Source of the DNA: Rubritalea profundi
GTDB taxonomy: Bacteria > Verrucomicrobiota > Verrucomicrobiia > Verrucomicrobiales > Akkermansiaceae
Length of the DNA: 34,494 bases
NCBI RefSeq assembly: GCF_002954445.1
Contig: NZ_MQWA01000001.1
Coordinates: forward strand, 573,322 to 607,815
Direction of reading: 5' to 3'
Numbering within the stretch: the stretch's first letter is position 1; every line of letters starts with the position of its first letter. Below the pieces are notes generated by a model that worked only from the letters and a program-made list of their open reading frames with translations, ran no database searches and was not told the origin of the DNA. Position numbers and translations under genes: made by a program. This document shows, one piece after another, positions 15,233 through 26,827 of the stretch.

Positions 15233-16101
15233 GAGCCGAATACACACATATCACGGTTGATGAGACTGAGCTCCACCGCATGACTCTGCTTCCCGACGAA
15301 GGAGTCGAGTGCACCGCTGCGTGTATTTTCTCCCATGGTCAAGGTGACTATGGCGAACGGTACCTCGATGTCCTCCACCCATTCACCGACCGCGGCATCA
15401 AATGTATTGTCACTGACCACCAAGGGCATGGCCGCAGTACGGGTAAACGAGGCCACATTGACTCCACTCAATTTATCGACAAAGTCATCGCCAGTAACCT
15501 AGCAGCTACTGGTGACTTACCAACGGGCATCGCTGGCCACTCGATGGGTGGGTTACTCACTCTCCGCCACCTTTCGCTGAGTCTACGAGGGGATCTGCCA
15601 ATACCTGAATTTTGCTGGGTCAATGCGCCACTACTGCACCCCGGAAATGGCCGCCCAGATTGGTTCATTCGCATGGCCAACGTACTCGCTTCTATTACAC
15701 CCAGCGCAACGATCCGCACTGGCGTCACGCCGGAAATGTGCCGACTAGAAGACTCCTCGGCTGGACGCTTACCGAAAGACCCACTTTCACTCGGCCACCG
15801 GCGCGTCTCAATTGGCTGGGGAAGCGAGCTGATCCGGATAGCCAATTTCAGCCAAACTACCCTACTCAATAAGAGCTACAATCAGCCCTTTCTTTTCACC
15901 CAGGGTGGAGCTGACTCAGTCTGCCCTGAGTCCAAAGCCGAGACCTTTTTCACGAAGCTAGATTGGCCCACGATGCAATACCAATGCTTCCCAGGAATGC
16001 TCCATGAAACCTTTGCTGAACCCAAGCGTTTTGAGCTCTTCGAAACTTTGGGTTGCTGGATTGATGCTTACTTTCTAGCGCAACAAAAGACGCACACATA
16101 G
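15229..16101 (+). CDS. Alpha/beta hydrolase, monoacylglycerol lipase-like
   Basis: The 290-residue product belongs to the serine hydrolases of the Hydrolase_4 (monoacylglycerol lipase/lysophospholipase) type. The nucleophile is Ser105 in IAGHSMGG, the acid is Asp229 in TQGGADSVCP and the histidine is His259 in GMLHETF. FSHGQGDYGERY (residues 34-45) gives the HG oxyanion motif and TDHQGHGRSTG (62-72) is the typical second signature. There is no signal peptide, so action is cytoplasmic or on the inner membrane. The start is GTG 15229, overlapping the stop of the SirB1-like gene. Its 3' end overlaps the convergent rhomboid gene by 27 bases (16075-16101). Confidence 0.88.
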   Translation: MRAEYTHITVDETELHRMTLLPDEGVECTAACIFSHGQGDYGERYLDVLHPFTDRGIKCIVTDHQGHGRSTGKRGHIDSTQFIDKVIASNLAATGDLPTGIAGHSMGGLLTLRHLSLSLRGDLPIPEFCWVNAPLLHPGNGRPDWFIRMANVLASITPSATIRTGVTPEMCRLEDSSAGRLPKDPLSLGHRRVSIGWGSELIRIANFSQTTLLNKSYNQPFLFTQGGADSVCPESKAETFFTKLDWPTMQYQCFPGMLHETFAEPKRFELFETLGCWIDAYFLAQQKTHT

Positions 16102-17274
16102 CGCGGTAGACGCCACAAGCACAGCCAGCCCACAGGCGCCAAAGATCCGATCCTTTCTCAAGATATCAGGTCGACTCACTGAGGCACTAGGCGGGAAAAC
16201 GATCAATGCGTAGGCCATTCCAGCGACCAAACCACCAGCGTGAGCGGCATTATCTATAAAACTAAACCCGAGCGCACCCATGACGGCAATCATCACCAAG
16301 CCAGCGAGAAGGCGCTTGCTGGCAGATTGGGGGACGAGTGAACGGTGCAGATTCTCAAAAATCAGCAAGAATCCTAATAAACCTAGAATTCCACCAGAGG
16401 CACCAACGCTCGGGACTTCAGGCATAAAATACACCGCCGCCATGCCGCCAGCAAAAGCTGAGATCACGAACACGAGAATCATATGCGGCCAGCGCGCCAA
16501 CACTTCAGCGCGTCTGCCTAAATAACGTAAAGCAGCAAAGTTCATCAGCCAGTGCACGAGATTCCCATGAACAAGCGGGGCCGTGAAGTAGCGCCACCAA
16601 GGGTCACCACCAGCCACTGTCGATTTTAGTAAGCCCACTCTTGTCACAGTTTCCTGAGCCCAGTTGATTCCCCCACTGCCAAACCACTGAGCAGCACAGG
16701 TCACTACCATTATAGTTAGTAACACAAAGGTGACCGGAGTGAGACACAAACCTAACCAGCTATCAAAGCGGGCGTCAGCAACCTCTTTATCCCAAAAGAG
16801 CTCATCCCTCTTGCCAGCCTTGCGCAGCTCCTTCCAGCCTTCGTACAAAGGAACTAGCCCGAATATCAGTAACATGATCGCCGTGACAGCAACCGTCGGT
16901 GCATTCAAAATCGCTCGCCAATCACCATAGCTATTCTGATAAGCTGCATAGCCAGCCCAAAGAGTTGCAACTCCCATCACCAGCGACAAACGACGGCCAT
17001 CGGTCATGTCATTGCGCGCCCACACCGATCTGCGCTTTACTAAAACCTTACGCAAGCCGACCAGCTCCTCGGGCGCTACCATATAGTCAGATGCTGGTGA
17101 CCAAACGAGGTCAACCCCAAGCTTTGATTTCTCAATCGTCTGGCTCAGCTCCTCCAAGGATTCCGCGGAATGACGTTTCCCCTTGGTATCCTGAAAACCA
17201 AAAACACCAGTTGCTGGCTTTGCTGGAAATGCTTCCGGCCTAGCCCACACTGGTGCTTGTTGTTGCGTAGACAC
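16075..17274 (-). CDS. Rhomboid-family intramembrane serine protease
   Basis: The 399-residue product has a soluble N-terminal region of about 95 residues, which may be a small GYF-2/DUF4339-like domain (VFGFQDTKGKRHSAESLEEL). About six to eight membrane segments follow. The catalytic pair is visible: Ser293 in VGASGGILG and His345 in DNAAHAGGLVAG. The oxyanion region HGNLVHWLMN (236-245) contains the usual histidines and asparagine. It should cleave membrane proteins within or near the bilayer; substrates are unknown. The start is GTG 17274 with a good Shine-Dalgarno (ACGGAGA), 21 bases after the secG stop. Its 3' end overlaps the convergent hydrolase gene. Confidence 0.9.
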   Translation of the reverse strand: MSTQQQAPVWARPEAFPAKPATGVFGFQDTKGKRHSAESLEELSQTIEKSKLGVDLVWSPASDYMVAPEELVGLRKVLVKRRSVWARNDMTDGRRLSLVMGVATLWAGYAAYQNSYGDWRAILNAPTVAVTAIMLLIFGLVPLYEGWKELRKAGKRDELFWDKEVADARFDSWLGLCLTPVTFVLLTIMVVTCAAQWFGSGGINWAQETVTRVGLLKSTVAGGDPWWRYFTAPLVHGNLVHWLMNFAALRYLGRRAEVLARWPHMILVFVISAFAGGMAAVYFMPEVPSVGASGGILGLLGFLLIFENLHRSLVPQSASKRLLAGLVMIAVMGALGFSFIDNAAHAGGLVAGMAYALIVFPPSASVSRPDILRKDRIFGACGLAVLVASTALCVRLLLR

Positions 17275-17295
17275 GTGTTGCGTCTCCGTAATAAG

Positions 17296-17856
17296 TTATT
17301 CCGCTGGAGTCGCTTCAGCAGGTACTGCTGGAGCCGCTTCAACTGCTACAGGAGCTGGATTCGCTTCTTCAGTTGCTGGTGTTTCAACAGGTGCGGACTC
17401 TTCAGTTGCTGGTGTTTCAACAGGTGCGGACTCTTCAGTAGCTGGTGTTTCTTCAGGTGTTGAAGTTTCTTCAGGTGTTGGAGTTATTTCCTCCAAGATC
17501 TTTTTGACTTCCTCAGCTGTCTCAGCATCGTCAGTTTGCTCTTCGGTCTCAGCCTTCACTTCTTTCTCGATGTTTTGACCAGAATTCTGGGCCGCCACGA
17601 GAACTTGTAGAGAAAGTGCGAGTACGAAGAAAAGAGTGCCGAGCCAAACAGTGCCTTTTTGAAGGACATCTGTGGTGCGGGCACCAAATGCTTGATCAGT
17701 CATGCCACCACCAAAAGCGGCTCCAAGGCCCTCTTGCTTTGGACGCTGCATCAGCACAACCAAGCATAGTAGCAGAGCAACTGCTACTATGATAACGAGA
17801 AGAATATTGGTGGCGATTGGCATGAAGCCACTCGCTGCTATAATCATAGAATTCAT
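17296..17856 (-). CDS. secG: SecG translocase subunit with a long acidic repeat tail
   Basis: Residues 1-95 are a normal SecG: hydrophobic segment TNILLVIIVAVALLLCLVVL, then MQRPKQEGLGAAFGGG and a second membrane segment LGTLFFVLALSLQVLVAA. SecG assists protein export through SecYEG. Beyond residue about 95 lies an unusual tail of some 90 residues rich in Glu, Thr, Pro and Ala, containing near-identical 11-residue repeats (EESAPVETPAT). Usual SecG proteins are 70-120 residues. In the E. coli topology both ends are periplasmic, which would place the tail outside the membrane. It is followed by the rhomboid gene, 21 bases on. Confidence 0.9.
   Translation of the reverse strand: MNSMIIAASGFMPIATNILLVIIVAVALLLCLVVLMQRPKQEGLGAAFGGGMTDQAFGARTTDVLQKGTVWLGTLFFVLALSLQVLVAAQNSGQNIEKEVKAETEEQTDDAETAEEVKKILEEITPTPEETSTPEETPATEESAPVETPATEESAPVETPATEEANPAPVAVEAAPAVPAEATPAE
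17366..17464 (-). repeat. 33-bp tandem repeats inside secG
   Basis: Two identical 33-base units occur at 17366-17398 and 17399-17431, followed by a diverged third from 17432. They encode 11-residue EESAPVETPAT-type repeats. Identical DNA units suggest recent duplication and possible copy-number change between strains. Confidence 0.85.
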
Positions 17857-17926
17857 GAGGCGCGGAATATGGTCAGCAACTGGCCGATTGTAAAGCCATG
17901 ATTTACTGAGAATTTAAAGGACTGGG

Positions 17927-18274
17927 TTACTTTCCTAGGCGGATAATTTCGTTCTGCTCATTGCAGACAACTTTTTTCGGCGTGACAGTCTCTTCCGACA
18001 GGCCGAATGCCATGATCGTGATGCGCTCACCCTTACCAATCACGTGCGCGGCGCCGCCATTGAGAATGATTCTCCCAGAGCCAGAAGGACCTGCCTGAGC
18101 ATAGGTTTCTAGTCGCCCACCTTTTGACGCAGAAGTCACCAGAACTTTCTCGCCTTCAATCAGATCCACAGCCTGCATCAGGTCGAGCGGGATCTCGATG
18201 CTGCCTTCATAATCCACCACACCGTCGGTACACATTGCACGGTGGATTTTTGATTTCAAGAAAGTGCGTAACAT
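17927..18274 (-). CDS. panD: Aspartate 1-decarboxylase (pyruvoyl enzyme)
   Basis: The 115-residue product makes beta-alanine from aspartate for pantothenate and coenzyme A synthesis. The start ATG 18274 gives MLRTFLKSKIHRA, the canonical N-terminus with the active-site Lys9 region. The self-cleavage site Gly24-Ser25 is in DYEGSIEI, exactly where the family has it. SGSGRIILNGGAAH (about 72-85) is the second conserved block. An upstream ATG at 18292 would add six residues not seen in the family. It lies in a minus-strand run with pdxA upstream and secG downstream, 70 bases away. Confidence 0.95.
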   Translation of the reverse strand: MLRTFLKSKIHRAMCTDGVVDYEGSIEIPLDLMQAVDLIEGEKVLVTSASKGGRLETYAQAGPSGSGRIILNGGAAHVIGKGERITIMAFGLSEETVTPKKVVCNEQNEIIRLGK

Positions 18275-18353
18275 GACGGCACCAATCACCAATTTAGAAC
18301 TAAAGTCAAATCATTCCGACTAACCGATAAACAGCTAGTTCGTGGTGGCTGCA

Positions 18354-25488: not shown

Positions 25489-26343
25489 ATGAGCTCAGAC
25501 TCCACCGCCGTCGTGCCAATCACTGACTCACATTGCCATCTTGCTTCGCATAAATTTTCGCATGCGGAGCTAGAGCAAATCATCCTCAACGCAAAGGCTG
25601 CTGGAATCCACAGGATGGTCACTCTAGCCACCTCGCTAGAGGATTGCCCTAACAACGTCGCCATCTGCGAAACTTTTCCAGAAGTGTTTTGCGCCATCGG
25701 CATCCACCCATGCGATGTCCATCAAACACCAGATAACTATCTCGCTCCACTAACAGAGTTCGCTAGCCACCCAAAATGCGTTGCCATCGGCGAAACTGGC
25801 CTCGACTACTTCCACCCCGCTCCAGAAGGCTGGACTGACGACAAGTACCACCAACGCCAACGCGACTTCCTACACCAGCACTTCCAGTTAGCTAAAGATC
25901 TCGGAAAGAATATCGTCATTCATACCCGTGATAAATCGGGATACCAATCTCTCCACGACTCACTCGATATCTACCAAGAATTCTCCAGTGACGTCCACGC
26001 TGTCTTCCACTGCTTCCTTGGACCATGGGAAAATGCCCAGCGCATTATCGAACTCGGCGGCTATGTTTCCTTCACTGGAATCGCCACCTTCAAATCAGCA
26101 AAAGACTGTATCGCAGCAGCCGTTCAAGCTCCCGCTGGGAGAATGATGGTCGAGACTGATTCCCCTTACTTAGCACCCACCCCACACCGAGGTAAACGCA
26201 ATGAACCAGCATTCACACAGCTCGTGGCTCAGAAGATTGCGGAGGCTCGGGGTGAGTCCATACAGGCATTTTCAACGCATACTGAAATGAGCGTGAACAC
26301 ATTTTTTAACTTTTCTTCTAACATTGAGAAAGATTTATGCTAA
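25489..26343 (+). CDS. tatD: TatD-family metal-dependent DNase/hydrolase
   Basis: The 284-residue TIM-barrel protein has the metal ligands His15 and His17 (TDSHCHL), Glu in IGETGLDYF, His in IVIHTRD, His in VFHCFLG and Asp in METDSPYLAP, all in the usual order. E. coli TatD is a 3'-5' exonuclease, and relatives act on nucleic acids or D-aminoacyl-tRNA. The N-terminus MSSDSTAVVPI is slightly longer than usual. It closes the ygfZ-sufE-tatD run; the 3' end lies about 45 bases before the LysM gene. Confidence 0.92.
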   Translation: MSSDSTAVVPITDSHCHLASHKFSHAELEQIILNAKAAGIHRMVTLATSLEDCPNNVAICETFPEVFCAIGIHPCDVHQTPDNYLAPLTEFASHPKCVAIGETGLDYFHPAPEGWTDDKYHQRQRDFLHQHFQLAKDLGKNIVIHTRDKSGYQSLHDSLDIYQEFSSDVHAVFHCFLGPWENAQRIIELGGYVSFTGIATFKSAKDCIAAAVQAPAGRMMVETDSPYLAPTPHRGKRNEPAFTQLVAQKIAEARGESIQAFSTHTEMSVNTFFNFSSNIEKDLC

Positions 26344-26373
26344 TCTTTCGTTTCTATTATATCGTCTAAATGC

Positions 26374-26379
26374 TAGAAT
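26374..26379 (+). promoter_or_regulatory. -10 box of the LysM lipoprotein gene
   Basis: TAGAAT matches the -10 consensus at five of six positions and ends 7 bases before ATG 26387, so transcription would start at or next to the start codon. The -35 region 17 bases upstream (TTTCTA) is weak. Confidence 0.4.
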
Positions 26380-26386
26380 ACCTGCA

Positions 26387-26827
26387 ATGAAAAATATCAT
26401 CCTCTCAATTGTCTCAATCGCCTCCGCCGCACTCGTATCTTGTAACAACCAAACAGGGAACCCATACGGAGCGCCAGCGGCAAATCAAGCCGCAGCCCAA
26501 GGAGCAAACCCCTACGCGGTACCGCAATCAAACGGAGAAACCGGAAACAATGCCCCCTACCAGGCACTACCGGGCGTAGGCAACACTCTCCCCCCTGCTC
26601 AAGCTCCCGCTTACGGTAATAACTCCTACACGCCACCAATTCCCGCAGCACCAGGCGTTGCAGCCCCCGCTGCTGGATCCACTCTTCCTCACACAGTCGT
26701 CAAAGGTGACAGCCTCTGGAAACTAGCCAGAGACTACGACACAACTGTCGAAGCTATCCGCGCGGCAAATGGTATCTCAGGTAACAATATCCAGCTCGGA
26801 CAAACCATACAGATTCCTAATAACTAG
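26387..26827 (+). CDS. LysM-domain lipoprotein
   Basis: The 146-residue product has a lipoprotein signal (MKNIILSIVSIASAALVSC, lipobox cysteine at 19). A linker of about 75 residues rich in Asn, Pro, Ala, Gly and Tyr follows, then one LysM domain at the end (HTVVKGDSLWKLARDYDTTV, AIRAANGISG, LGQTIQIPN). LysM binds peptidoglycan, so the protein should link the outer or inner membrane to the wall. ATG 26387 is chosen because it gives the clean lipoprotein signal; an upstream ATG in tatD would bury it. A strong terminator follows. Confidence 0.9.
   Translation: MKNIILSIVSIASAALVSCNNQTGNPYGAPAANQAAAQGANPYAVPQSNGETGNNAPYQALPGVGNTLPPAQAPAYGNNSYTPPIPAAPGVAAPAAGSTLPHTVVKGDSLWKLARDYDTTVEAIRAANGISGNNIQLGQTIQIPNN

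Follow-up and report, generated by a model that had tools for sequence, protein, structure and literature searches.

A repeat-bearing C-terminal tail on SecG of Rubritalea profundi and its relatives, with signs of selection and a short recurrent motif

The secG gene of Rubritalea profundi raises the question of why a small translocon subunit should end in a long, repeat-rich tail, and whether that tail does anything. The gene lies in a 34,494-nucleotide stretch of contig NZ_MQWA01000001.1, referred to here as the window, and the features that matter for the question are the following.

17296–17856, minus strand: secG, 186 amino acids, two membrane helices and a tail (ORF call; PF03840, TIGR00810)
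17593–17805, minus strand: SecG membrane core, residues ~18–88 (hydropathy, charges, AlphaFold2)
17299–17592, minus strand: C-terminal tail, 98 residues, residues 89–186
17485–17592, minus strand: membrane-near part of the tail, residues 89–124 (AlphaFold2 helix with declining confidence; hydrophobic peaks in 97 tails of relatives)
17485–17505, minus strand: KKILEEI, residues 118–124, placed like the family motif KSLxEEL
17299–17484, minus strand: distal coil rich in P, T, E, and A, residues 125–186, with no K/R and 15 D/E
17366–17459, minus strand: 33-bp tandem array, about residues 134–164, 2.8 copies, two of them identical (TRF)
16075–17274, minus strand: rhomboid-family intramembrane protease, downstream of secG after a 21-bp gap (PF01694, 88.4 bits against a cut-off of 22.6)
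17927–18292, minus strand: panD, upstream neighbor of secG (PF02261)

By both family profiles, the ORF at 17296–17856 is an ordinary SecG: PF03840 matches residues 18–85 with 70.7 bits (Pfam cut-off 29.2) and TIGR00810 matches with 70.2 bits (NCBIfam cut-off 30.85). Its function as a part of SecYEG that stimulates export is predicted from this family membership. Hydropathy and charges place helix 1 at residues ~18–36, a loop at 37–67, and helix 2 at ~68–88, with hydrophobic 19-residue windows spanning residues 3–41 and 68–90; the loop carries four K/R and three D/E, and the N-terminus and helices are uncharged. An AlphaFold2 model computed from a shallow alignment of 41 sequences (mean pLDDT 66, pTM 0.36) gave block means of 72–87 in the helices and 61 at residues 41–50. 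Many loci of the family (uncounted) share TTTACAAT, located here at ~17887–17894 (minus strand), some 30 nt ahead of the secG start; it reads as in-frame LYK or LYN ahead of the start methionine. It resembles a -10 promoter element followed by a short leader.

The tail consists largely of glutamate (25.5%), alanine (18.4%), threonine (14.3%), and proline (13.3%), and its charged residues comprise 27 D/E and 4 K/R. In the AlphaFold2 model, a single helix extends over residues 52–123 and gives way to coil. Block pLDDT falls through 74, 66, 61, and 52 over residues 91–130; residues 89–123 are helical at 52–74, and residues 131–186 are coil at 44–54. Judged from this model, the tail is probably disordered. 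Within the distal coil, the 33-bp copies starting at 17366 and 17399 are identical, and a third at 17432 matches at 27 of 33 positions. The exact self-match at period 33 covers 41 nt, the longest among the window slices tested, against a maximum of 13 in 300 dinucleotide shuffles. An antisense ORF across the repeats (17170–17463, plus strand) was discarded as their mirror image. The initial annotation, whose interpretation is partly supported overall, was right that the gene is a real SecG, that it has roughly 90 extra residues (98 after helix 2), and that it contains identical 33-bp DNA units, to which a diverged third copy can be added. The span it gave, 17366–17570, does fall inside the tail but misses its final 22 and initial 7 residues.

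To place this tail among its relatives, we compared SecG across the phylum. SecG matches were found in 52 of 58 relatives, the own genome included, and, phylum-wide, in 281 of 288 genomes; a search of plasmids for SecG gave no match. The loci compared number 212, namely 52 from the genome search, 80 from named contigs (the best 80 of 243, with family membership taken from the contig names), and 80 fetched regions; those from the phylum search are the better-scoring ones, from part of the 281 matching genomes. All 212, from the own phylum or named relatives, encode SecG. After removal of 12 duplicates and six loci cut by contig ends, 194 tails remained, distributed as follows.

Own genus: 8 tails, 61–137 residues, net charge -25 to -13
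Other genera of the family: 22 tails, 70–135 residues
Family genus g3: 14 tails, 54–86 residues, net charge -9 to 0
Same order: 21 tails, 43–300 residues
Same class: 11 tails, 27–99 residues
Same phylum: 51 tails, 25–173 residues
Named contigs (best 80 of 243 loci): 67 tails, 48–329 residues

The comparison of SecG tails across Verrucomicrobiota that the initial annotation had suggested thus yielded tails of 25–329 residues in 194 distinct complete copies, with a median of 90 and at least 60 residues in 157. Long Pro/Ala-rich SecG tails are normal in the sampled lineage. The tail had at first been described as unusual, which does not hold: tails are the rule in the loci examined, and SecG tails have been published elsewhere (PMC9425974). 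Cysteine was looked for in all 194 tails and found in none. The SecG of R. marina (L064) is identical to that of the same-genus genome G010 in its tail and the end of helix 2. A glycine-zipper-like stretch (GALIGGQ or GAAAGG) lies near acidic repeats in L027 (own genus, G002) and L145 (same order, G043), a pattern caught in only these two of the 194 tails.

Tail length varies between close relatives at the species level, which supports in part the variation in length that the initial annotation suggested among strains. It differs in 101 of 111 between-species pairs whose cores agree to 95% or more and whose tails are not identical. The cores of L021 and L022, for example, are identical and their tails measure 135 and 114 residues, differing by three 7-residue units. 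At the upper end, L123, a metagenome assembly named Akkermansia sp., has a tail of 329 residues, most of which is taken up by an 8-residue repeat.

Repeats of this kind allow the amino acids to be assessed for selection. Scanning the 194 tails for DNA arrays chosen regardless of reading frame, we found repeat arrays in 70, with a period divisible by three in every one. If repeats are neutral, one third of the differences between copies is expected at each codon position. Across the 70 arrays, however, mismatches between copies at codon positions 1, 2, and 3 numbered 264, 198, and 764, so that 62% fell at position 3 rather than the expected 33% (bootstrap 56–69%). Position 3 exceeded the mean of positions 1 and 2 in 66 of the 70 arrays, fell below it in three, and tied in one. 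In the tight arrays, present in 25 of the 194 tails, the counts were 23, 25, and 179; without the dominant L123 they were 22, 25, and 100, with 68% at position 3 (57–78%). In L123 itself, 101 of 107 copy differences are at third codon positions. Two tight arrays are exceptions, with no mismatch at position 3: L121 (4/2/0) and L128 (1/2/0). The excess grows with the strictness of array picking, the position-3 share being 0.50, 0.62, 0.72, and 0.77 at mismatch penalties of -0.8, -1.2, -2, and -3. A replacement-to-silent ratio of 0.114 was set aside, as the arrays behind it had been chosen by protein identity and were biased. The R. profundi array contains a single difference between copies, at codon position 3, and is therefore too young to judge selection. 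Across the set, the position-3 excess shows that the amino acids of the repeats matter and says nothing about their role; we conclude that selection preserves these amino acids while the number of copies drifts.

A second sign of constraint lies closer to the membrane. For this analysis the family and named relatives were taken together, giving 97 tails: those of the own genus, of the remaining family genera without g3, and of the named contigs (best 80 of 243 loci). Of these, 31 contain the pattern [KTPS]SLx[EDK][EDQ]L, which appears at most once in any of 500 shuffled sets. KSLSEEL is its commonest reading, and many relatives have the KSLxEELP type. The motif starts after 20–37 tail residues, that is, about 30 residues beyond the membrane. 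Identity is 0.77 within it and 0.17–0.33 in the flanking 7-mers, the former value being inflated because carriers were selected by a regular expression. Its serine and leucine positions use four to six synonymous codons. Hydrophobic residues peak at tail residues 6–10 and 29–40 of the 97 tails and are depleted at 61–80. At residues 29–40 their fraction is 0.216, compared with 0.088–0.142 in shuffles; in the 66 tails lacking the strict motif it is nearly the same, 0.215 against 0.083–0.155. Outside the family, the strict motif was found in 0 of 83 tails; because its carriers are related genera, shared descent contributes to it. The KKILEEI of R. profundi fails the strict pattern, and we infer from its matching distance to the membrane that it is the equivalent of KSLxEEL.

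Another pattern, [ST][ILV][MILV][DE] at tail residues 4–18, is present in 28 of the 83 tails outside the family (for example L043, L049, and L159; no more than 2 in shuffles) and is weaker among the 97 tails of the family and named relatives (11, with no more than 3 in shuffles). The SecG chain of PDB entry 3dl8 (107 amino acids) has a similar GSVVEK after its second helix.

Since repeats and motif are apparently preserved by selection, the tail probably does something. On which side of the membrane it would do so is suggested mainly by E. coli SecG, in which a cytosolic loop connects the two helices (PMC8082313). This topology, together with the acidic tail and the loop charges, leads us to place the tail in the periplasm, its likely location. 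The charges themselves are weak evidence, as the loop has four K/R but also three D/E, and the tail starts positive: its first five residues average +0.31 per residue in the 97 tails of the family and named relatives. This positive start slightly weakens the reading favored below.

Given these features, we tentatively favor a reading in which SecG is extended by a disordered tail, probably periplasmic, whose motif docks a partner and whose selected spacer varies by slippage. Next to the membrane, the first ~36 tail residues would be weakly helical and bear two hydrophobic spots, the more distal of which would be a short linear motif, KSLxEELP in many relatives and KKILEEI in R. profundi. Beyond it would follow a Pro/Ala/Thr/Glu spacer, its length changing by in-frame repeat slippage and its amino-acid make-up held by selection. 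On the side where the channel opens outward, the motif could dock a partner located in the periplasm or the membrane, and the soluble spacer would keep it accessible and unaggregated. If the motif does dock a chaperone, this would be a lineage-specific coupling of export to folding.

Candidate partners are proteins of the PpiD and YfgM types, because both contact SecG in E. coli (PMC9643414) and matching Pfam domains are encoded in the R. profundi genome (two SurA_N_3 and three TPR_21 matches). The SecG residue reported to cross-link to YfgM in E. coli, however, sits in the cytosolic loop (PMC9643414), a point against the docking reading. The best SurA_N_3 protein has 571 amino acids, the best TPR_21 protein 270 (L214:1252–2064, minus strand; G000:C1 near 2050476), and each appears by eye to have a single membrane segment. 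The link to YfgM is loose, since TPR_21 is also found in 7 of 14 control genomes. This YfgM-like protein has a Pro/Ala/Thr/Glu-rich C-terminal tail of its own, so such ends may be a wider habit of R. profundi envelope proteins. The ORF at 26324–26827 (plus strand), perhaps a lipoprotein, has by eye a long Pro/Ala/Asn-rich linker and a LysM-like end, and appears to be another envelope protein with a disordered linker.

The alternative that survives best is that the tail is functionless filler, in which slippage is tolerated because a soluble, disordered end goes unpenalized in the periplasm. Tail length and sequence do vary even where species share an identical core, the repeat units are not the same from one lineage to another, and E. 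coli SecG totals 110 residues. Filler would, however, leave unexplained the position-3 excess between repeat copies, the constrained position of the motif, and the retention of tails across loci, only 8 of the 194 measuring 30 residues or fewer. We regard this explanation as doubtful.

A role for charge, in which an electrostatic or entropic brush of negative residues near the channel exit repels or guides chains or holds cations, appears rather improbable. All eight complete, distinct tails of the own genus are strongly negative, with the charges listed above. Across the phylum, by contrast, net charge ranges from -76 to +13 (median -7); it is -10 or lower in 84 of the 194 tails and neutral or positive in 30, and the tail of L178 has 16 K/R and 3 D/E. 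Strong acidity is a habit of genus and family and no trait of the phylum. The initial annotation had proposed an acidic brush; the neutral and positive tails speak against acidity as the conserved property, and the membrane-near ~36 residues, which hold conserved hydrophobic positions with the repeats lying farther out, speak against a brush.

The gene downstream raises a further possibility, that the neighboring rhomboid protease processes or polices SecG. Rhomboids are capable of clearing orphaned membrane-complex subunits (PMC7232013), and Providencia AarA trims an 8-residue N-terminal extension from TatA (PMC3712462). A rhomboid gene lies beside secG in 97 of the 212 loci, all in the family or named relatives: 8 of 9 own-genus loci (the contig of the ninth ends in secG), 19 of 24 in other family genera, and 70 of 80 named loci (best 80 of 243), compared with 0 of 15 in genus g3, 0 of 21 in the same order, 0 of 11 in the same class, and 0 of 52 in the same phylum, in flanks often of ~1 kb or cut by contig ends and with some named loci repeating genomes of the search. 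In all 97 it is downstream on the same strand, with a median distance of 40 nt between the secG stop and its first aligned codon. The rhomboid protein is matched in 72 of 79 family genomes; the eight genomes of g3 show just weak domain matches (six) or none (two). GxSG and HxGG are present in 88 of the 92 rhomboids that are long enough; the other four have GASG and end before the histidine. The R. profundi protein has an N-terminal region of ~200 residues. The upstream neighbor, panD, adjoins secG in 4 of 9 own-genus loci, 10 of 24 in other family genera, 15 of 15 in g3, and 23 of 80 named loci (best 80 of 243).

Beyond this constant arrangement and the intact protease motifs, SecG N-termini are longer in the family (median 34 residues from the chosen methionine to the loop, against 26 outside), which would suit processing; yet the longer N-terminus also occurs in genus g3, which is without the rhomboid neighbor. 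The rhomboid recognition motif (pattern after PMC2941825) is not enriched, matching 43 of 81 distinct N-termini with the neighbor and 45 of 80 outside the family. Processing or policing of SecG by the protease, on the model of AarA and TatA, seems very unlikely. A more elaborate proposal, in which a selected KSLxEELP-type motif would recruit a periplasmic partner, the repeat spacer would set its reach, and the rhomboid would control SecG through orphan removal or processing, is unlikely as a whole. An annotation or assembly artefact, whether frameshift (the alternative named at the outset) or chimera, has negligible probability: six relatives do have contigs that break off inside the tail, with short repeats at the break in at least four (L024 and L116 possibly represent a single genome), but the frame is continuous, and we reject it because comparable tails are general among relatives, in many genera.

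The length of the tail also bears on SecG topology. Inversion of SecG in the membrane has been reported for E. coli (PMC9437254). That model is disputed. A translocon with a SecG tail of 98 to 329 residues offers a natural test of it: with so long and charged an end, which reaches 329 residues in L123, full inversion in each export cycle would be very hard in these bacteria, and the inversion model becomes testable.

Several known systems can be set beside this tail. In the AarA–TatA pair of Providencia, as here, a small translocon subunit and a rhomboid protease occur together, in our case as gene neighbors; TatA is cleaved, and for SecG the count of recognition motifs gives no support for cleavage. 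TonB and TolA type linkers are Pro-rich, disordered, periplasm-spanning, and anchored in the inner membrane. The SecG tail recalls them in its Pro-rich make-up, probable disorder, and inner-membrane anchor, but lacks a folded terminal domain and ends in predicted coil. E. coli SecG (110 amino acids) likewise has two helices, a conserved loop, and a Pro/Ala-rich tail end. R. profundi SecG has 98 residues after helix 2 alone, compared with total lengths of 65–136 residues for the nine matched structure chains; the alignment of the 136-residue chain resembles that of E. coli SecG with an offset of 26 residues.

The closest precedent is a paper in which SecG figures among the protein families that combine a conserved core with a variable tail (PMC9425974, Table 2). 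It reports a variable SecG tail in all Bacteroidetes, Chlorobia, and some Proteobacteria and Spirochaetes, and its absence in Deinococcus/Thermus and Firmicutes; its variable regions as a class have short repeats, are rich in P, S, T, D, and E, and are predicted to be disordered, with function not known (PMC9425974). Its SecG tails, like those here, join a conserved core to a far more variable end with repeats and length changes. The main text of that paper names no Verrucomicrobiota, the phylum of the present tail, and none of the literature matches listed concerned a SecG tail in this phylum. Variable SecG tails with predicted disorder are therefore already known, and what is new is the evidence of selection, the motif, and the rhomboid neighbor. 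The amino acids of such a variable tail now carry evidence of selection, and the 7-residue segment is the first target for mutation.
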